Program-made: the position numbers and the translations under genes
The notes under the pieces: model-generated
Told to the model about the DNA's origin: nothing
What the model saw: the letters and a program-made list of their open reading frames with translations, nothing else
Databases searched by the model: none
Source: Arenibacter algicola
GTDB lineage: Bacteria > Bacteroidota > Bacteroidia > Flavobacteriales > Flavobacteriaceae
Length of the DNA: 64,000 nt
Direction of reading: 5' to 3'
Assembly (NCBI RefSeq): GCF_018860365.1
Contig: NZ_JAHKPO010000031.1
Span: 62,001 to 126,000 of the forward strand
In this document: positions 4,129-42,639 of the stretch, one piece after another
Layout of the letters: every line of letters begins with the position of its first letter
Position numbering within the stretch: position 1 is the first letter of the stretch

Positions 4129-4860
4129 ATGAAGTTAAACGCCCTAATTGTAGAAGATGAAGCCAATAGCAGGGAAATTCTACGCAATTATTTGGCCAAA
4201 TATTGTCCCTCCGTTAATTTGGTAGGCGAAGCGGCAACCATAAAGGAAGGGCTTGCCCTGATCAATAGCAACGATCTTGATGTGGTATTCCTTGATGTGG
4301 AAATGCCTTTTGGAAATGCTTTCGATTTGTTGGATCAGCTACCGGACCGTAATTTTGAGACCGTTTTTGTCACAGCCTATAATCAGTACGCCGTAGATGC
4401 ACTAAATGCCCATGCTGCCTATTATTTAATGAAGCCCATTAGCATAGATGAGCTTATAAAAGCAGTGGATTACGTTGCTGAAATAAGGGAGAAGGAAAAG
4501 GCGATTGAAGATCGTGTTCTTACCCCTAAGTTTAATAAGGTGGACGGAAAAATAACCCTGCCGCAACAAGATGGCTTCCAGGTGTTGAATGTGGCGGATA
4601 TCCTATATTGTAGGGCAGATGACAATTACACGGAATTGTATTTGGAGAAACATAAAATTCTGGTGAGTAAAACGCTTAAATATTTTGAGGAAGCCTTGTC
4701 CGACTATACCTTTGCCAGGGTCCATAAGTCGTATCTGGTAAATGTAAATGAGATCGTTAAGTATAAAAAGGGCAAGGGTGGCAGTGTGGTAATTTCCAAC
4801 GGCAAGGAGATAATGGTTTCCGCTTCCAAAAAGAAGGATTTGCTGTCGTTTTTTGAATAG
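4129..4860 (+). CDS. LytTR family response regulator
   Basis: 243 aa. The receiver domain (1-120) has the acidic pocket ED near residues 9-10, the phospho-acceptor Asp56 in VVFLDVEMP, and a conserved Lys in LMKPIS. A LytTR DNA-binding domain follows (about 140-243; ILYCRADDNYTELYL and the HKSYLVNVNEI signature). It lies 72 bp after the LytS-type kinase and should be its cognate regulator. LytTR proteins usually bind pairs of imperfect direct repeats; I could not assign target sites here. Confidence 0.93.
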   Translation: MKLNALIVEDEANSREILRNYLAKYCPSVNLVGEAATIKEGLALINSNDLDVVFLDVEMPFGNAFDLLDQLPDRNFETVFVTAYNQYAVDALNAHAAYYLMKPISIDELIKAVDYVAEIREKEKAIEDRVLTPKFNKVDGKITLPQQDGFQVLNVADILYCRADDNYTELYLEKHKILVSKTLKYFEEALSDYTFARVHKSYLVNVNEIVKYKKGKGGSVVISNGKEIMVSASKKKDLLSFFE

Positions 4861-6804: not shown

Positions 6805-9393
6805 ATGGGAATACTCGATAATTATTTTAATTTCATATATCGGTTGAGCCTGAAGCGTTTGCTTCTAATCTTATTTTACCTTTTTCCAATTGACAATTTT
6901 AAAGTTTTACCCTTTGCCATTTATAAGGGTATATATGCCTTTGAATCAGCCAATGGGATTTCAAATAATTTAGAATCTTTAGAAAGGGTGTCTTTTTACT
7001 TGCAGGAAAGAGCAGGTATCACGGTTAGTGCTATTAGCAGAAGTACCAATGAATCTGGGCAAACTGCCTCTTTTACCATAGTGCTCAATTCCCAGCCGAA
7101 GGATAACGTAAAAATTGATTTAAAAAGTAGTGACGAATCCGAAGGTACCATAGAAGTTAAGAATGTGACCTTTACGGAAGCAAATTGGAATATTGCGCAA
7201 ACCATTACCGTAACTGGCGTGGATGATGATCTTGTGGATGGGAATGTTGTTTACAGGATTATCACAGGGAAGGTGGATTCCGAAGATGACAGTTATGGCG
7301 ATTTAAAGGCAGATGATGTATTGGATGTTTCGGTGGTTAATGAGGATAATGACTTGGCAGATTTTATAGTTACACCGCAAACGGTGAGAACTAGAGAAAA
7401 GGGTCCTGCCGTGCAGTTGAGTATTGTATTGACAGCTAGACCAAAAGATGATGTTACCTTGTTTATAGATTCTGGGGATACTTCTGAAGGTGTTGTTTCC
7501 AAGGATGAAATAAAGTTTAAAAAGGACAAGTGGAGCTCCCCCCAGATAGTACGTATAGAACCGGTAGATGATGAGGATATAGATGGTGATGTTACCTATT
7601 TCATAACTATCGGAATCAAGGATAGTGATGATGATTATGAGGATGTGGGTATAAAAACTGTGACCGTAATTAATGTGGATGATGATTTTGATTGCCCTGC
7701 TGTTGAGGCCGCACCTACACTAAATCCGGATGTACCCACTGTTTTTTGCCAGGCTTTCAGTCAAAATTTAGATGAATATAATAGCAGTCCAATACCTTCC
7801 GGTGTAGATTTAATATGGAGTAGTAGTAGCGATTTTAGCATTACGGGTGCCCGATTGGCCAGTTCTGTGGTGAATAATGCAGCATCCTATTACGGATTCT
7901 TTTACAATGAGGGTGCAAATTGTAATAGTCCTCCATTGGAAGTTAATTTGGTGCAGAGTAAAATACCACAGATTATAGGAATTGATCCGGCTACCATTTG
8001 TGGGGCTGGAACAGCTAAATTAAGTGCTACAGTTAGTGAAGGCGGTAGTGTGTATTGGTATGATTCTGCCAATAGTTCCCAAGTTTTGGCCGAAGGAAGC
8101 AGTTTTACGACTCCCTATAACGATCAGAGCAAGGATTACTTTGTGGAAGCATCGGCCAATGGGTGTGCATCAGCGCGTGTTCCGGTTAGGGTCACGGTAA
8201 TTGAAGAATCCAACGCTGGAACTACAGCCAATACCTCGGCCTGCAGTGTAGCTGGAAATGGCGTTTCAAGTGTGGATCTGGACAACACAAGGGATGGTGT
8301 ATCTACTGGTGTTTGGAGTGTTGTTGGGACACCTCCTGGCGCAATAACAATAGGGTCTGGGAATGTGGTTGATTTTTTAGGTGCTTCCAACGGGGATTAT
8401 GTTTTCAGATTTACCACTTCAACCACAAATAATATATGTCCGAAAGCTAGTGTTGACGTGGCTATTACGGTTAGTGAATGTACATTGGACACCGATAATG
8501 ACGGCTTACTGGATGGCGAGGAAACAGTTCTGGGGACCGATATTAACAACCCGGATACGGATGGGGACGGGATACGTGATGGGGTTGAAGTTGGTTCGGA
8601 TGTAAGTAATGCCCTTGATGAAGACGGGGATTCTGTAATAGATGCACTGGAGTCCAATATTCTGGATGCTGATAATGATGGCGTGGTCGACCAACAGGAT
8701 CCTGCAAATGAAGATTCATGTATCCCAATTATGACCGTGGGCTGTGGAATTGATTTTGCGCTAGAGGTAGAAGTGGATAATTCTAATCCAATTGTTGGAG
8801 AGCACATCAAATTTACAATTGTCCTTTACAATTTAACCGTATTGGAGGCTGTAGATATAAGAATAAATGAGTTAATAGATGCCTCCATGGGGTTTCAATA
8901 TATTTCCCATAGGGTAGATAACGGACTGTATGACCCAGCTGCAGGCGTCTGGTTGCTATCGGAAGTTGCAGGGGAAGCAATACATGCCTTGGAAATCCAA
9001 GTTCGCGTTTTGCAGGAGGGGTTTTTTCAAAATACGGCTTCTTTAGTCTCTTCCCAACCTGAAGATGGCAATGTAACCAATAATGTTGCTTCGGTCACGG
9101 TCCATGTTGGGCCCAGATCGGTGGATGCCTGCGGATTTGTTTTCAATCAGATATCACCTAATGCGGATGGGATCAATGATCGGCTAATAGTAAATTGTAT
9201 TCAGGAGTTTTCAAATATTTTTTTGGAAATATTTGACCGGTATGGCAATAAGGTATATTCAGTAAGGGGATATGATAATTCATGGGATGGAAGAGGAGAA
9301 AATGGGGTTTTGCCCAAGGGTACCTATTTTTATATCATGGATTTGGGTGATGGAACGGAAGTCAAAAAAGGATGGATCCAGATTATGGGCTAG
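6805..9393 (+). CDS. T9SS type B-sorted surface protein with Calx-beta-like repeats (862 aa)
   Basis: Order: a hydrophobic but atypical N-terminus (about 15-45), two Calx-beta-like units of about 115 aa (from about 70), Ig-like modules rich in SSSDFSITGARL and Cys, a calcium-binding thrombospondin type 3-like stretch (about 555-630; DTDNDGLLDGEE, DADNDGVVDQQD), a DUF11-like domain (about 650-770), and a CHU_C gliding-motility C-terminal domain (about 775-862; ISPNADGINDRL, then IFDRYGNKVY and KGTYFYIMDLGDG). The last domain is the T9SS type B sorting signal, so the product should be exported and retained at the surface. It is a shorter paralogue of the next gene with only two repeat units. 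The N-terminus lacks a clear signal peptidase site, so the start may be wrong or the signal unusual. Confidence 0.85.
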   Translation: MGILDNYFNFIYRLSLKRLLLILFYLFPIDNFKVLPFAIYKGIYAFESANGISNNLESLERVSFYLQERAGITVSAISRSTNESGQTASFTIVLNSQPKDNVKIDLKSSDESEGTIEVKNVTFTEANWNIAQTITVTGVDDDLVDGNVVYRIITGKVDSEDDSYGDLKADDVLDVSVVNEDNDLADFIVTPQTVRTREKGPAVQLSIVLTARPKDDVTLFIDSGDTSEGVVSKDEIKFKKDKWSSPQIVRIEPVDDEDIDGDVTYFITIGIKDSDDDYEDVGIKTVTVINVDDDFDCPAVEAAPTLNPDVPTVFCQAFSQNLDEYNSSPIPSGVDLIWSSSSDFSITGARLASSVVNNAASYYGFFYNEGANCNSPPLEVNLVQSKIPQIIGIDPATICGAGTAKLSATVSEGGSVYWYDSANSSQVLAEGSSFTTPYNDQSKDYFVEASANGCASARVPVRVTVIEESNAGTTANTSACSVAGNGVSSVDLDNTRDGVSTGVWSVVGTPPGAITIGSGNVVDFLGASNGDYVFRFTTSTTNNICPKASVDVAITVSECTLDTDNDGLLDGEETVLGTDINNPDTDGDGIRDGVEVGSDVSNALDEDGDSVIDALESNILDADNDGVVDQQDPANEDSCIPIMTVGCGIDFALEVEVDNSNPIVGEHIKFTIVLYNLTVLEAVDIRINELIDASMGFQYISHRVDNGLYDPAAGVWLLSEVAGEAIHALEIQVRVLQEGFFQNTASLVSSQPEDGNVTNNVASVTVHVGPRSVDACGFVFNQISPNADGINDRLIVNCIQEFSNIFLEIFDRYGNKVYSVRGYDNSWDGRGENGVLPKGTYFYIMDLGDGTEVKKGWIQIMG

Positions 9394-36374: not shown

Positions 36375-37262
36375 CTAATCCTGAGCTGATGATATAACTT
36401 CCTCCAAAACTGTAATTAAATCCTTGGGACTTTTAAGGTAGGTTACCATATTATCATTGTTTTCAGTTTCAAGATTAATTGGACTTCCAGAGAACAAAAG
36501 TGGTGTTTTGGTCTCCGATGATAATCTAAGAACCTTGTCTTCAACCACGGAAGGGGTTGTGGTAACAAAAAAGGTTAGTAGATAATTGGGGTTTACCAAC
36601 TCGGCCATGGTCTTTACATTATCATAGGGCACATTCTGTCCCAGGTAAAAAACCCTCCATCCTAGTTGTTTGGCAATAAAGTGAGCCAATAATAGGCCAA
36701 TCTCATGATTTTCGCCTTCGGCCAGGAACATTATTATCTTTGGAGCATTCTTTGGTGCAATAGGTAGTAAATCTATGGCCGAACATATTTTTTGACGGAT
36801 CAGGTTGGAAACAAAATGTTCCTGTGCCGGCATAATTTTATTGATACCCCAAAGAACTCCAACTTTATGTAGAAATGGATAAATTACCTCGGTAAAGGTG
36901 GTTAGAATGCCATTTTTTAATACCTGGGATTTGATAATGTTGTCAAATTCCTGTTCATCCAAATTAATCATACTCAATACCAAGGCCTTCACATCAGCGT
37001 CTTGGTTAGACTCGATCAAGGCGTCTTCAATCATTTTGTTGATTTCCTCGTCCGTCATCTTGCCTATAGTAGATAAACGCACACCTTGACTTCTTAGTAT
37101 ACTTATGTTTAATAACTTCTTTAATTGAGCATCCGTATAGAACCGGATGTTGGTATCTGTTCTTTCCGGTACTAAAAAATCATATCTACTTTCCCATTTT
37201 CTCAGGGTATGTGAATTGATACCTGTTAGTGAAACTACCTGCGCCATGGAATATCTGCTCAT
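36375..37262 (-). CDS. CarH/LitR-like MerR regulator with cobalamin-binding photoreceptor domain
   Basis: 295 aa. A MerR winged helix (1-70; YSMAQVVSLTGINSHTLRKWESRY) is followed by a B12-binding helical bundle and Rossmann part. Trp138 then nine residues then Glu148-His149 gives the Wx9EH motif known to cap adenosylcobalamin in CarH. The lower-ligand motif reads E184-N-H186-E-I-G, that is ExHxxG rather than DxHxxG; His186 is kept. In CarH, light breaks the Co-C bond and the DNA-bound tetramer falls apart, derepressing carotenoid genes. The divergent fasciclin gene, crtB, crtZ and photolyase fit this role. Light response here is inference. Confidence 0.9.
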   Translation of the reverse strand: MSRYSMAQVVSLTGINSHTLRKWESRYDFLVPERTDTNIRFYTDAQLKKLLNISILRSQGVRLSTIGKMTDEEINKMIEDALIESNQDADVKALVLSMINLDEQEFDNIIKSQVLKNGILTTFTEVIYPFLHKVGVLWGINKIMPAQEHFVSNLIRQKICSAIDLLPIAPKNAPKIIMFLAEGENHEIGLLLAHFIAKQLGWRVFYLGQNVPYDNVKTMAELVNPNYLLTFFVTTTPSVVEDKVLRLSSETKTPLLFSGSPINLETENNDNMVTYLKSPKDLITVLEEVISSAQD

Positions 37263-37330
37263 ATTGCTGTCTAATAAATTACAGGGTAAAGTTAAACAAA
37301 TATTTCAGAGGAGGAGGCTTTTAAATGTTT

Positions 37331-37350
37331 TTGTCTAAAAATTTATACAA
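37331..37350. promoter_or_regulatory. Imperfect 20-bp palindrome, candidate CarH-like operator
   Basis: Half sites TTGTCTAAAA and TTGTATAAAT (reverse complement of the right half) agree at 8 of 10 positions. The site lies 5 bp upstream of the -33 TTG of the fasciclin promoter and about 70 bp before the merR start, so it could control both divergent genes. Binding is inferred. Confidence 0.5.
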
Positions 37351-37355
37351 AAAAG

Positions 37356-37385
37356 TTGGACAAAGAAATTAAATGTTTATATTTG
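37356..37385 (+). promoter_or_regulatory. Consensus promoter of the fasciclin lipoprotein gene
   Basis: TTG at 37356-37358, exactly 19 bp, then TATATTTG at 37378-37385. This fully fits the Bacteroidota housekeeping consensus; the ATG is at 37414. Such a strong match suggests high expression when not repressed. Confidence 0.85.
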
Positions 37386-37413
37386 TCAAAGTATTAACCT
37401 AAAATAATTAGAC

Positions 37414-39423
37414 ATGAAAAGAATTGGCATTTATTTTTTAGCATTATTCAGTTCTATGTTATTTGTTGTATCATGTAGTAATGACGATGACAATGACATA
37501 ATTGATGAGCCCACTTTGAAGACCATTGTGGAAACAGCTCAGGACACGGACATTTTAAGTAGCTTGGTTGCTGCTTTGGCAAAGGCGGATGAAAACGCAG
37601 ATTCAGATTTGATAGGAGCATTGAGCGGCAATGGTCCCTTTACGGTTTTTGCACCGACCAATGGTGCTTTTACTGCGCTATTGGCCAGTCTGGATGGATT
37701 TGATAGTTTAAGCGACTTTGATACTCCTGAGAAAAGGGAGATCCTTGCTGCTATTTTGAAGTACCACGTAGTAGTTGGAGCAGCAGCTACTTCCAGTTCT
37801 TTGACCAATGGTCAAGAATTTACCACTCTGCAAGGTGAAAAAATTACTGTCAGAATTGACGGCGATGTTTATATTCAAGATCCGACCGATACGGATGCAA
37901 AAGTGGGGCCTGCGGATGTTTCGGCTTCCAATGGTATAGTGCATGTTATAGATAAAGTTTTGATCCCTCAGGAAGTTTTGGATGCCCTAAACCCAGAACC
38001 AATGCCGAACATAGTAGAATTGGCAATGGACACAGACTTTTTATCACTTTTAGTTGGAGCTCTTGTACAGGCCGATGCCGGTTTGGTAGACCTGTTACAG
38101 ACAGATGGTCCCTTTACAGTGTTCGCACCTACCGATACCGCCTTTGCGGCCCTATTGGATGCTTTGGGTGATGATTACAACAGCTTGGCCGATTTTGACA
38201 CTACTGAAGAAAAAGCGTTGTTGGCACAGATTTTAAAATATCACGTAGTTGCCGGAACTGCAGCCTTTTCGGGAGATTTGTCCAATGAACAAATGATAGA
38301 GACCGCCCAGGGAGAATCCGTAACGGTAAGTTTGACTGGTGGAGTTTTTATTCAGGATAAAACCGATGTGGACGCAACTGTAGCACCAGCTGATATCGCT
38401 GCTAGTAATGGAGTAGTACATGTAATTGATAAAGTATTATTGCCACAGGAGGCATTGGATGCTCTAATGCCACCAACACCAAATATTGTGGAATTGGCAA
38501 TGGACACCGATTTTCTATCTATTTTGGTAGGAGCTTTGGTACAGGCCGATGCCGGTTTGGTAGACCTGTTACAGACAGATGGTCCTTTTACAGTGTTCGC
38601 ACCTACCGATACTGCCTTTGCAGCCTTGTTGGAAGCATTGGGTGATGATTACAACAGCTTGGCCGATTTTGATACTACTGAGGAAAAAGCATTGTTGGCG
38701 CAGATTTTAAAATATCACGTAGTTGCTGGAACAGCGGCCTATTCCACAGATCTGTCCAATGGACAAATGGTAGAGACTGCCCAGGGTGAATCTGTAACTG
38801 TTAATTTAACAGGTGGGGTGTTCATTCAGGATAAAACCGATGTGGACGCAACTGTAGCACCAGCTGATATCGCTGCTAGTAATGGAGTAGTACATGTAAT
38901 TGATAAAGTATTATTGCCACAGGAGGCATTGGATGCTCTAATGCCACCAACACCAAATATTGTGGAATTGGCAATGGACACCGAATTTCTATCTATTTTG
39001 GTAGGAGCATTGGTACAGGCAGATGCCGGTTTGGTAGACCTGTTACAGACAGAAGGTCCCTTTACAGTGTTCGCACCTACCGATACCGCCTTTGCTGCCC
39101 TATTGGATGCATTGGGTGATGATTACAACGGTTTGGGCGATTTCGATACTCCCGAGGAAAAAGCATTGTTGGCACAGATTTTAAAATATCACGTAATTGC
39201 CGGAACAGCGGCCTATTCCACAGATCTGTCCAATGGACAAATGGTAGAGACCGCCCAGGGCGAATCCGTAACTGTTAACTTAACAGGTGGGGTGTTCATT
39301 CAGGATAAAACCGATGTGGACGCAGCTGTAGCACCAGCTGATATCGCTGCTAGTAACGGAGTAGTACATGTAATTGATAAAGTATTGTTACCACAAGAGG
39401 CAATAGATGCCCTATTGCATTAA
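37414..39423 (+). CDS. Lipoprotein with four fasciclin (FAS1) domains
   Basis: 669 aa. Lipobox FVVSC with lipid-modified Cys21, then an Asp-rich stretch (SNDDDND), suggesting envelope or surface localisation. Four FAS1 domains: about 35-190, 195-355, 355-512 and 512-669, each with IVELAMDTDFLSLLVGAL, FAPTDTAFAALL (H1 box) and VVHVIDKVLLP (H2 box). Domains 2-4 share a 158-aa period and near-identical DNA; domain 1 is diverged. The gene is divergent from the B12 regulator and is followed by a terminator and then crtB. FAS1 domains often mediate adhesion, but FAS1 carotenoid-binding proteins (for example algal AstaP) exist; given the neighbours, carotenoid binding is a testable idea. Confidence 0.93.
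   Translation: MKRIGIYFLALFSSMLFVVSCSNDDDNDIIDEPTLKTIVETAQDTDILSSLVAALAKADENADSDLIGALSGNGPFTVFAPTNGAFTALLASLDGFDSLSDFDTPEKREILAAILKYHVVVGAAATSSSLTNGQEFTTLQGEKITVRIDGDVYIQDPTDTDAKVGPADVSASNGIVHVIDKVLIPQEVLDALNPEPMPNIVELAMDTDFLSLLVGALVQADAGLVDLLQTDGPFTVFAPTDTAFAALLDALGDDYNSLADFDTTEEKALLAQILKYHVVAGTAAFSGDLSNEQMIETAQGESVTVSLTGGVFIQDKTDVDATVAPADIAASNGVVHVIDKVLLPQEALDALMPPTPNIVELAMDTDFLSILVGALVQADAGLVDLLQTDGPFTVFAPTDTAFAALLEALGDDYNSLADFDTTEEKALLAQILKYHVVAGTAAYSTDLSNGQMVETAQGESVTVNLTGGVFIQDKTDVDATVAPADIAASNGVVHVIDKVLLPQEALDALMPPTPNIVELAMDTEFLSILVGALVQADAGLVDLLQTEGPFTVFAPTDTAFAALLDALGDDYNGLGDFDTPEEKALLAQILKYHVIAGTAAYSTDLSNGQMVETAQGESVTVNLTGGVFIQDKTDVDAAVAPADIAASNGVVHVIDKVLLPQEAIDALLH
38005..39420 (+). 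repeat. Three 474-bp tandem coding repeats
   Basis: PN-IVELAMDT starts recur at 38005, 38479 and 38953, exactly 474 bp apart. Bases 38350-38510 (161 bp) are identical to 38824-38984. Confidence 0.95.
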
Positions 39424-39537: not shown

Positions 39538-40374
39538 TTGAAAGCGCTCTTCGATTCTTCCAGTATAAAATGTAGTAAATTGGTTACCCATACCTATAGT
39601 ACTTCCTTTTCTTTGGGTATTAGGCTGTTTTCGCCTAAAATAAGACCGGTAATCTACGCCATTTATGGTTTTGTTAGGTATGCTGATGAGATTGTGGATT
39701 CCTTTCACGATTATGATCAAGAAGAATTACTAACGGAATTTATCAAAGAATATAAACTTTCCTTAAAAAGAAAAATTAGTTTAAATCCTATTATAAATTC
39801 GTTTCAGGAGGTAGTGCATAAATATGAACTTTATGAATACGCCGATGTTTTTTTGGAACGTATGAAGTATGATCTTGAGGTTTCTGAATATACGACCAAG
39901 GAGGCTTACGAAAATTATATCTATGGATCGGCCGATGTGGTGGGTCTCATGTGTTTAAGGGTTTTTGTAGACAATGATGACGAGAAATTCAATTCCCTTC
40001 AATCTTCGGCAAAATACCTGGGCTCCGCCTTTCAAAAGGTAAATTTTTTGAGGGATATAAAACAGGATCTTGAAAGTTTGGGCAGGTCCTATTTTCCCAA
40101 TGTACAGCAAAAGGAATTGACCGATGAGGTAAAAAGGGAAATCATCACAGAAATTGAGGAGGACTTTAAAAAAGCCTATAAAGGTTTGGTTCAATTACCT
40201 ATAGAAAGTAGGTTAGGGGTCTATATTGCCTATAAGTATTATTCCAACCTGCTGAAAAAACTAAAAAACACCAAATCCGAAAAAATACTGAGCGGCAGAA
40301 TTCATATATCCAATCCTATGAAAATGGTGATATTGGCCAAGGGCTATGTGAGGTACAAGTTAAACGCTATTTAA
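39538..40374 (+). CDS. crtB: Phytoene synthase CrtB (squalene/phytoene synthase family)
   Basis: 278 aa. It starts at TTG 39538, which gives the family N-terminus MKALFDSSSIKCSKLVTHTYSTSFSLGIR; no ATG preserves it. Substrate-binding Asp-rich motifs are YADEIVD (first) and FLRDIKQD (second); YIYGSADVVGLMCL lies between. CrtB condenses two geranylgeranyl-PP into phytoene, the first step to carotenoids such as zeaxanthin. The gene opens the crtB-crtZ pair; crtI and crtY are not in this window. Confidence 0.92.
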   Translation: MKALFDSSSIKCSKLVTHTYSTSFSLGIRLFSPKIRPVIYAIYGFVRYADEIVDSFHDYDQEELLTEFIKEYKLSLKRKISLNPIINSFQEVVHKYELYEYADVFLERMKYDLEVSEYTTKEAYENYIYGSADVVGLMCLRVFVDNDDEKFNSLQSSAKYLGSAFQKVNFLRDIKQDLESLGRSYFPNVQQKELTDEVKREIITEIEEDFKKAYKGLVQLPIESRLGVYIAYKYYSNLLKKLKNTKSEKILSGRIHISNPMKMVILAKGYVRYKLNAI

Positions 40375-40694: not shown

Positions 40695-41171
40695 ATGAGT
40701 GATATTAAAAAAAGGCAAATGGAAATAGTATTGTATATTCTTACAACTGTGTTGACTTTTATAGTGATGGAAGTGGTAACCTGGTGTACCCACAAATTTG
40801 TGATGCACGGTTTTTTGTGGGTTTTGCATGCCGACCACCATGAACCTAAGTACCCCCATGTTTTTGAAAAAAACGATGCCTTTTTCGTGATTTTTGCCAT
40901 TCCAAGTATTGCGCTTTTTTATTTCGGAGTAACCCCAGCCCTTAACTATTTATTCTTTATTGGTCTGGGGATCCTATTTTATGGTATGGCATATTTTTTG
41001 GTTCATGATGTATTAATTCACCAAAGATTTAAATGGTTTAAAAACATCAAGAACAGGTATTTGCTGGGGTTAAGGAAGGCACACAAAATTCATCATAAAA
41101 ATATGGGCAAGGAAGAAGGGGAATGTTTCGGGATGCTGCTGGTGCCCAAAAAATACTTCAGACAAAATTAA
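40695..41171 (+). CDS. crtZ: Beta-carotene hydroxylase CrtZ-like (fatty acid hydroxylase superfamily)
   Basis: 158 aa, four hydrophobic helices. The di-iron His motifs are present: HKFVMH, HADHH, HDVLIHQ and KAHKIHH. CrtZ adds hydroxyl groups to the beta-rings of carotene to make zeaxanthin in the cell membrane. Its place beside crtB supports the carotenoid role. It starts 320 bp after crtB, so the two may be separately controlled. Confidence 0.9.
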   Translation: MSDIKKRQMEIVLYILTTVLTFIVMEVVTWCTHKFVMHGFLWVLHADHHEPKYPHVFEKNDAFFVIFAIPSIALFYFGVTPALNYLFFIGLGILFYGMAYFLVHDVLIHQRFKWFKNIKNRYLLGLRKAHKIHHKNMGKEEGECFGMLLVPKKYFRQN

Positions 41172-41304: not shown

Positions 41305-42639
41305 TTAGGAATCAATTCCAATTTTATACGCTTTCAATGCTCTTTCCCTGGCAAATTTGTGCTCAACTATTGGGTCTGGGTATTCAAAGGAGTCAAATTC
41401 AGGAATCCACTTTCTTACATACTTATAATCCTTGTCAAACTTTTTTTGCTGTGATAAGGGGTTGAAAATTCTAAAGTAGGGAGCTGCATCACATCCTGTT
41501 CCGGCAGCCCATTGCCAGTTTCCATTGTTGGAGGATAATTCATAATCCAATAATTTTTTGGCAAAATAACTTTCTCCCCACGTCCAGTCTATCAATAAAT
41601 GTTTGCAGAGAAAGCCGGCAGTAATCATCCGTACCCGATTGTGCATAAAACCGGTTTTGTTAAGCTGCCTCATGCCGGCATCCACCATGGGATATCCCGT
41701 TTTTCCTTCACACCAAAGTCTAAACTCTTCCTTGTTGTTCCTCCATTGGATACCATCATATTTGGATCTGAAATTTTGGGTTACAACATGGGGAAAATGA
41801 AATAGAATTTGCATAAAGAATTCCCTCCAAATGAGTTCACTTAAAAAAACGGCATGCTTTTTATCAATCTGGGCAATTACCTGTCTTACGCTTATGGTTC
41901 CAAATCTTAAATGGGGACTGAGGTGACTGGTGATGTCTTCGTACGGGAAATCCCTTTGGTCCGCATAAAGATGTAATTGGGTCAGGTCAAAGTCCTGTAC
42001 CTCAATATCCGATTTTTTAAAACCGATATTTTCCAAAGATAAGTATGGGTAATCTCCTTTAATAAGGTTGTCCAGTTTGGGGGTCCTAAGTGATATGTTA
42101 TTTTCCTCCTCAAATTTCGCGAGCCATTTATTCTTATAGGGCGTAAAAACCGTATAGGGTTCTTCATCGCCTTTTACAATTTCGTTTTCCTCGAATATTA
42201 CTTGATCCTTAAAACTAAAAAAGGGGATATCCTTTTCGGCCAGCATTTCGGAAATTTCCTTATCCCTGCCAATGGCGTAAGGTTCGTAGTCACGGTTGGT
42301 ATAAACGGCAACTATATTAAATTTGGAAATCAAATCCTTCCAAATTGATACCGGTTCGCCGTCCAAACACAAAATGTCCGAGCCATGGTTTTTTAAGGTT
42401 TCTTTTATTTTAAGAATTGTTTGACGGATGAAATTTACTCTGGCGTCATCTTCGGGCAATTCGTTTAAAATAAGGCGATCATAAATAAATATGGGCAAAA
42501 CGGTGATGTCCTTGCCCAATGCTTCTGCCAGTGCCGTGTTATCTTCTATTCGAAGGTCTCTTCTAAACCAAAAAATAGAAATTGGGCTTTGGTCCTTGGA
42601 TAAGGTGGGAATGTGTTCATTACTCATATTTGGTGCCAT
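41305..42639 (-). CDS. phr: Deoxyribodipyrimidine photolyase
   Basis: 444 aa from 42639; an ATG at 42627 (MSNEHIPT) is also possible. The N-terminal Rossmann antenna-binding domain starts SIFWFRRDLRIEDNTAL. The C-terminal FAD domain has GYPMVDAGMRQLNKTGFMHNR-type residues, the LLIDWTWGESYFAKKLLDYE segment, and NWQWAAGTGCDAAPYFRIFNP; the photolyase-like Asn/Trp context suggests a class I CPD photolyase rather than a cryptochrome. It repairs UV pyrimidine dimers using blue light. Next to carotenoid genes and a light-type regulator it belongs to the same stress theme. It converges with crtZ. Confidence 0.93.
   Translation of the reverse strand: MAPNMSNEHIPTLSKDQSPISIFWFRRDLRIEDNTALAEALGKDITVLPIFIYDRLILNELPEDDARVNFIRQTILKIKETLKNHGSDILCLDGEPVSIWKDLISKFNIVAVYTNRDYEPYAIGRDKEISEMLAEKDIPFFSFKDQVIFEENEIVKGDEEPYTVFTPYKNKWLAKFEEENNISLRTPKLDNLIKGDYPYLSLENIGFKKSDIEVQDFDLTQLHLYADQRDFPYEDITSHLSPHLRFGTISVRQVIAQIDKKHAVFLSELIWREFFMQILFHFPHVVTQNFRSKYDGIQWRNNKEEFRLWCEGKTGYPMVDAGMRQLNKTGFMHNRVRMITAGFLCKHLLIDWTWGESYFAKKLLDYELSSNNGNWQWAAGTGCDAAPYFRIFNPLSQQKKFDKDYKYVRKWIPEFDSFEYPDPIVEHKFARERALKAYKIGIDS

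Follow-up and report, generated by a model that had tools for sequence, protein, structure and literature searches.

Three conserved inverted pairs of CarH-type units between a CarH-type regulator gene and a fasciclin gene in Arenibacter form a putative triple operator

Gene arrangement and promoters at the locus

We analyzed a stretch of 64 kb from the genome of Arenibacter algicola (in the following called the window), in which a 151-bp intergenic region separates two divergent genes. The gene on the reverse strand (36375-37262) encodes a CarH/LitR-type MerR regulator of 295 amino acids with a B12-binding domain (Pfam MerR_1, 1.2e-15; B12-binding_2, 9.1e-09). Both matches lie above the Pfam cut-offs, consistent with a preliminary description of this DNA that had placed a divergent CarH-like regulator next to the region. 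On the forward strand, the first gene behind the promoter (37414-39423) encodes a fasciclin (FAS1) repeat protein of 669 amino acids (Pfam Fasciclin in four stretches, 6.3e-120), whose N-terminus looks lipoprotein-like by eye. Downstream on the same strand lie a crtB-like gene of the phytoene/squalene synthase family (39538-40374; Pfam SQS_PSY, 4e-42) and a gene for a hydroxylase of the fatty-acid/carotenoid hydroxylase type (40695-41171; Pfam FA_hydroxylase, 5.6e-14), for which no NCBIfam match was found. A gene of the DNA photolyase/cryptochrome family (41305-42639, reverse strand; Pfam FAD_binding_7, 6.4e-76, and DNA_photolyase, 4.6e-39) is convergent to the hydroxylase gene and lies near the cluster in 10 of the 11 named Arenibacter loci; the remaining locus is truncated by the end of its contig.

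The fasciclin gene is preceded on the forward strand by a promoter of the Bacteroidota type (37356-37385), consisting of TTG at 37356-37358, a spacer of 19 nt and TATATTTG at 37378-37385. We take it to be a good promoter, judged by the Bacteroidota consensus. Its N19 spacer is present in all 12 Arenibacter genomes compared, and the arrangement TTG-N17..22-TANNTTTG occurs in 32 of the 39 ortholog loci introduced below. The promoter on the regulator side is weak, with AATATTTG rather than TANNTTTG in the window, where no full promoter motif was found on this side.

Three inverted unit pairs in the intergenic region

The intergenic region contains three inverted pairs of the 11-bp CarH-type unit nnnnTnnACAn, each 33 bp long, which we call the putative operators O1, O2 and O3; all six half-sites in the window fit the unit. 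O1 (37267-37299) begins 4 bp ahead of the regulator start codon and reaches the -7-like motif of the regulator gene, a position corresponding to the leader of this gene. The fasciclin promoter has its -33 TTG within the right unit of O2 (37331-37363), and in O3 (37383-37415) the left unit overlaps the -7 element TATATTTG and the right unit overlaps the fasciclin start codon. Both promoter elements of the fasciclin gene are therefore located in operator pairs, -33 in O2 and -7 in O3, and the two pairs together reach the start codon.

In an alignment of the intergenic regions of the 12 Arenibacter genomes, six blocks of 8 bp are conserved at 0.90 to 1.0, besides the -7 element at 1.0. O1 is 33 bp long in all 12 genomes (core conservation 0.896 left and 0.99 right), O2 is 33 bp in ten and 32 bp in two (0.958, the mean majority fraction of the left core at 37331-37338, and 0.948), and O3 has a length of 33 bp in 11 genomes and of 32 bp in the remaining one (0.958 and 1.0); over the 12 genomes, 33 of 36 pairs measure 33 bp and three measure 32 bp. 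The middles of O1 (0.88) and O3 (0.84) are fairly conserved, that of O2 (0.755) is not. As palindromes the pairs are imperfect, with five to nine of the ten outer bases complementary in the 12 genomes. The published CarH unit nnnnTnnACAn is matched by 69 of the 72 Arenibacter half-sites, and its positions T5, A8 and C9 are present in all 72. Roughly, the operator pattern reads TTGTCTAACTT-N10/11-AAGTTAGACAA, with a length of 32-33 bp and unit centers 21-22 bp apart. Base frequencies over all pairs gave no third conserved unit in the 10-11 bp middles, which are mainly characterized by A/T richness. O2 and O3 are likewise separated by a constant gap of 19-20 bp, as promoter spacing would force for neighboring pairs at a promoter. 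Which units to pair is therefore decided from O1, O2 and those loci in which the start codon is shifted.

A strict criterion of 14 of 16 core bases at 33 bp, chosen after the pairs had been seen, yielded the three pairs in the intergenic region and none elsewhere in the 64 kb; in 20,000 shuffles of the intergenic region, no shuffle ever contained more than one such pair. Searching the 5.75-Mb genome for TTGTCYAA-N17-TTRGACAA, we obtained O2 as the only exact match. Two mismatches gave 19 places, O1 and O3 among them, and up to three mismatches gave 220 matches versus 145 for the reversed pattern, so that further weak sites are possible. We do not claim any further target within a genome-wide regulon from these counts.

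The preliminary description had proposed a different element as operator, the 20-bp palindrome TTGTCTAAAAATTTATACAA at 37331-37350. Its half-sites do form eight of ten complementary pairs, and it ends 5 bp before the fasciclin -33 TTG, both as described. However, when the 151-bp intergenic region was shuffled 2,000 times with a first-order Markov model, 24% of the shuffles contained at least one zero-spacer 20-mer of equal quality (mean 0.29), and the window holds 49 of them. When the related intergenic regions were aligned, a palindrome with eight of ten pairs was present in one of the 12 Arenibacter genomes, the window's own, whereas the promoter was present in all 12, an outcome that the preliminary description had named as refuting its proposal. 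The right arm (37341-37350) is conserved at 0.75, little above the 0.62 and 0.71 of two spacers, and fits the loose unit nnnnTnnACAn in the window's genome alone among the 12. Conservation instead assigns AAGTTGGACAA at 37353-37363 to the left arm as its partner; the left arm is the left unit of the 33-bp O2, one of the three pairs. On the evidence of the shuffles, the 12 genomes and the right arm, we rejected the palindrome as an operator, a role for which we see practically no chance; it looks like a chance match, with its left arm alone belonging to O2. Inverted repeats with spacers of 0-10 bp are in excess in the intergenic region (12 versus a shuffle mean of 3.4, with 3% of 300 shuffles reaching 12), which fits the larger 33-bp inverted pairs.

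Co-occurrence of the pairs with the regulator gene

Orthologs of the regulator in the 11 named Arenibacter genomes share 74-93% identity. Among 18 congeneric genomes, 12 have the regulator and six have a paralog only. Allowing one mismatch at most, we found 26 matches to the pair in these 18 genomes. Nineteen of them adjoin the regulator gene, and such near-perfect pairs lie next to it in all 12 genomes that have it. The other seven near-perfect matches (four in genomes with the regulator, three in genomes without) compare with five control matches.

A search of 397 genomes of the family identified the regulator at an E-value of 1e-60 or better in 28 genomes, 26 of them from other genera. These 26 and locus L071 constitute a distant set of 27 loci with 46-56% identity, giving 39 ortholog loci together with the 12 from Arenibacter. 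Loci L032-L042 were left out beside L060-L070, which come from the same genus with matching identities, and were taken as identical genomes. L121 also stands for its duplicate L072 in the profile, promoter and plain-unit counts, and both were kept in the 40 rows referred to below.

With a profile derived from the Arenibacter units alone, we detected 55 inverted pairs with a length of 32 or 33 bp among the 27 distant loci and two pairs at other distances between 20 and 59 bp, where shuffles gave 0.00-0.02 per distance; two of the 27 loci (L007 and L008) had no pair at the profile threshold. With the plain published unit, every one of the 39 loci (12/12 Arenibacter and 27/27 distant) has one or more pairs of 32 or 33 bp. 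Three pairs were found in 28 of the 39, namely in ten of the 12 Arenibacter and 18 of the 27 distant loci, while seven distant loci had two pairs and two had one. Tandem same-strand units at 11 bp were absent from the 12 Arenibacter and the 27 distant loci, with 0.41 and 0.76 expected, respectively.

Characteristics of the regulator protein

The best PDB sequence matches of the regulator were 3whp, named only as a probable transcriptional regulator, and Thermus thermophilus CarH (5c8d). An AlphaFold2 model (pLDDT 85, pTM 0.80) matched best to the fold of full-length T. thermophilus CarH (5c8d/5c8e; E 1.5e-15 for 5c8d), with a TM score of ~0.55 and an rmsd above 10, indicating that the domains agree better than their placement. 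Against the NCBIfam CarH equivalog NF052513, the regulator scored 98.7 bits, below the cut-off of 400 bits, and is therefore named CarH-type rather than CarH; this cut-off was reached by none of 247 Bacteroidota genomes and none of 14 control genomes.

Residues W138, E148, H149 and H186 are invariant in 25 sequences, paralog included, and the alignment identifies them as the counterparts of W131, E141, H142 and H177 in T. thermophilus CarH, which bind AdoCbl according to the accessible part of the respective study (PMC11796333). In contrast, His132 of T. thermophilus CarH is absent in all 40 rows, with G in 34 and T in six. The same excerpt reports that illuminated T. thermophilus CarH fails to form monomers when it carries the H132A exchange and that this position varies in other light-responsive proteins (PMC11796333), so that His132 is not a strict criterion. 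Judged by the missing histidine, the light response of the regulator may differ from that of CarH.

A putative triple operator and alternative explanations

The sequences show three conserved pairs of fixed geometry that overlap the promoter and co-occur with the regulator gene, as well as conserved AdoCbl residues in the regulator. We consider it probable that the region is a triple operator for the adjoining CarH-type regulator, with AdoCbl-dependent repression in the dark and release by light. We infer that the regulator binds and represses, that light and B12 govern this control, that the regulator represses its own gene and that the downstream genes are co-transcribed; for binding, the direction of control and the light dependence, we rely on the family to which the regulator belongs. 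Unit centers 21-22 bp apart correspond to about two helical turns, which would put both DNA-binding domains on the same face of the double helix. With adenosylcobalamin and in the absence of light, the regulator would occupy O2 and O3, so that the fasciclin gene would be blocked at its -33, its -7 and its start region, and the regulator would also sit on O1 in the leader of its own gene, leading to self-repression. Light would then undo the cobalamin-dependent assembly and release the fasciclin, crtB and hydroxylase genes together with the regulator gene. The poor consensus of the regulator's own promoter weakens the claim of self-repression. The preliminary description had judged the position of its site suitable for repression of both divergent promoters, and the layout of O1-O3 fits control of both genes.

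The regulator might also bind the three pairs in another role, as an activator or a light-independent switch, for instance in response to B12 supply or as a MerR activator acting on a 19-bp spacer. The spacer found in all 12 Arenibacter genomes has the length quoted for MerR-activated promoters in the available text of PMC9478572, and His132 is lost. However, the units lie outside the spacer, cover -33 and -7 and reach the start codon, which is a blocking layout. Spacers of about 19 bp are, moreover, usual for Bacteroidota TTG/TANNTTTG promoters, and we regard such a role as unlikely.

If another protein, such as the paralogous CarH, bound the repeats, the neighboring regulator would be a bystander. 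The upstream regions of the paralog share the geometry of the pairs, and the right unit of O1, AAGTTAAACAA, resembles paralog-type units. Yet the six congeners with the paralog but without the regulator hold only three scattered near-perfect pairs, and six genomes with the regulator as their sole CarH match (G014, G028, G098, G040, G032 and G025) keep at least one pair, which makes this explanation very improbable. We attach hardly any credence to the pairs being RNA hairpins in 5′ leaders instead of DNA operators: O3 and O1 are mostly inside the expected leaders, but O2 lies before the -7, and O3 overlaps the -7 with its left arm, which places the beginning of this arm ahead of the transcription start expected from the promoter position.

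Comparison with known operators

The CarH operator is taken as a series of tandem direct repeats. In the accessible part of PMC9304148, the operators of Thermus and Bacillus CarH consist of three or four nnnnTnnACAn units in the same direction, every 11 bp. The T. thermophilus and Bacillus megaterium systems resemble the one described here in the 11-bp unit, one copy of which lies there over -35 or -10 (PMC9304148), and in a CarH-type regulator with the AdoCbl residues (PMC11796333); unlike the systems as described in these excerpts, each operator here has two facing units with a middle of 10-11 bp, and three operators are arranged in a divergent region. Since no 11-bp tandem was found here, the binding mode must differ. 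For Myxococcus xanthus and relatives, the CarA/CarH operator at Pcrt is ~55 bp long and is described as two inverted repeats or as five 11-bp repeats or pseudorepeats, one repeat overlapping the -35, and operator design is called plastic; unlike here, fixed inverted pairs of 32-33 bp and a triplication are unreported in the part of the article available (PMC9304148).

If the region is indeed a triple operator of the CarH-type regulator, the inverted use of the CarH unit would mean that the assembly of cobalamin domains can present the DNA-binding domains in another orientation. It would also provide a simple sequence rule for finding candidate light- or B12-controlled promoters in Flavobacteriaceae. 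CarH is already in use as a green-light switch. Facing half-sites of the TGTnA...TnACA sense, as in the window, are found in the TnrA/GlnR and classical MerR dyads as well, which measure ~17-22 bp end to end and involve a coiled-coil dimer. Unlike these dyads, the pairs described here are 32-33 bp long and are associated with a cobalamin domain.

In the open-licence literature searched, to the extent that its texts were accessible, we found no precedent for CarH operators of Flavobacteriaceae or for a link between fasciclin and CarH. Compared with that literature, the layout as a putative triple operator is new, while the 11-bp unit itself was already known. MliR of Bizionia is another kind of MerR protein, and cobalamin and CarH are absent from the main text as available (PMC9478572). 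For a Chryseobacterium with light-induced carotenoids, the accessible portion of the report states that car or lit genes were not found (PMC7064467).

The fasciclin gene and its carotenoid neighbors

The divergent reading frame is a fasciclin match in 37 of the 40 rows (the window; L003-L011, L060-L071 and L116-L132). In L072 and L121, which represent one species, and in L126, it starts like a phytoene desaturase, with the pairs still present; the one in L072 scores as crtI family. Among 11 distant loci with longer flanks, eight have crtI, crtB and the hydroxylase gene consecutively on the divergent side, seven of them behind the fasciclin gene. L109 carries these three genes on the strand of the regulator, the sequence of L104 breaks off within crtI, and no crt gene was found in the 18 kb of L110. 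All 11 named Arenibacter loci have crtB behind the fasciclin gene, and crtI was found at none of these fasciclin-crtB loci. The carotenoid set of the window likewise lacks crtI. A second carotenoid set in the window's genome comprises crtI and a second crtB (L133, 1498-4164; G000:C15 near 20130), and the reading frame after this crtI-crtB resembles the hydroxylase of the window by eye. No strict operator pair was found for this second set in the 4.2 kb covered by L133.

The fasciclin protein matched, among other fasciclin structures, that of the carotenoid-binding AstaP (8c18, E 7.6e-14), but animal fasciclins such as TGF-beta-induced protein outscored it. According to the available part of PMC10147662, green algae form AstaP as a fasciclin protein that binds carotenoids and is inducible by stress, and an AstaP homolog from cyanobacteria did not bind carotenoids. 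From its gene neighborhood, the fasciclin protein may bind carotenoids. The frequent pairing with a fasciclin gene suggests a light-induced surface protein, possibly a carotenoid-binding one. For flavobacterial CarH-type proteins more generally, we see about even chances that they use the 11-bp unit with facing domains 21-22 bp apart, in three clamps over a divergent region, with a fasciclin that may bind carotenoids like AstaP as first target.

Paralogous and distant CarH-type loci

As in the window, an inverted pair of nnnnTnnACAn units is present upstream of genes of the paralogous CarH family of Flavobacteriaceae, namely in 34 of 38 regions (17 of 18 loci within the genus and 17 of 20 in other genera). 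The distance is 32 bp in 32 of these 34 pairs, and 30 of the pairs begin 36-37 bp before the reference start and so extend over the -7 region and the start codon of the paralog gene. The right arm is partly coding, so that arm conservation is not independent evidence here. The paralog cores are mostly TTAAACA and TGAACA versus TTAGACA in the family of the window, and there is usually one pair per promoter.

We also considered 28 other CarH-type loci, drawn from 40 places of a Bacteroidota scan and leaving out L147 and L152 as copies of loci already used; in seven of the 28, the start codon was not found near the expected place. These loci contain six tandem 11-bp pairs (0.27 expected), in L136, L145, L146 and L154, as well as eight inverted pairs of 32 or 33 bp in length, where 0.39 were expected; these eight are spread over seven loci, one of which belongs to the window's family. 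Both tandem and inverted designs seem to exist in Bacteroidota, and the detector sees both. L136, L145 and L146 are far CarH-type relatives with 22-26% identity, and their upstream tandem 11-bp direct repeats correspond to the classical CarH design.

In L111, the paralogous CarH gene clusters with genes for TetR, ABC1 kinase, DUF2867, DUF2805 and GTP cyclohydrolase I. Inverted unit pairs of 32 bp lie there at 4582-4613, 8139-8170 and 9287-9318, before the genes for CarH and TetR and a reading frame of 143 amino acids. The paralog clusters of two other Arenibacter genomes (L114 and L115) likewise have three pairs with similar spacing.
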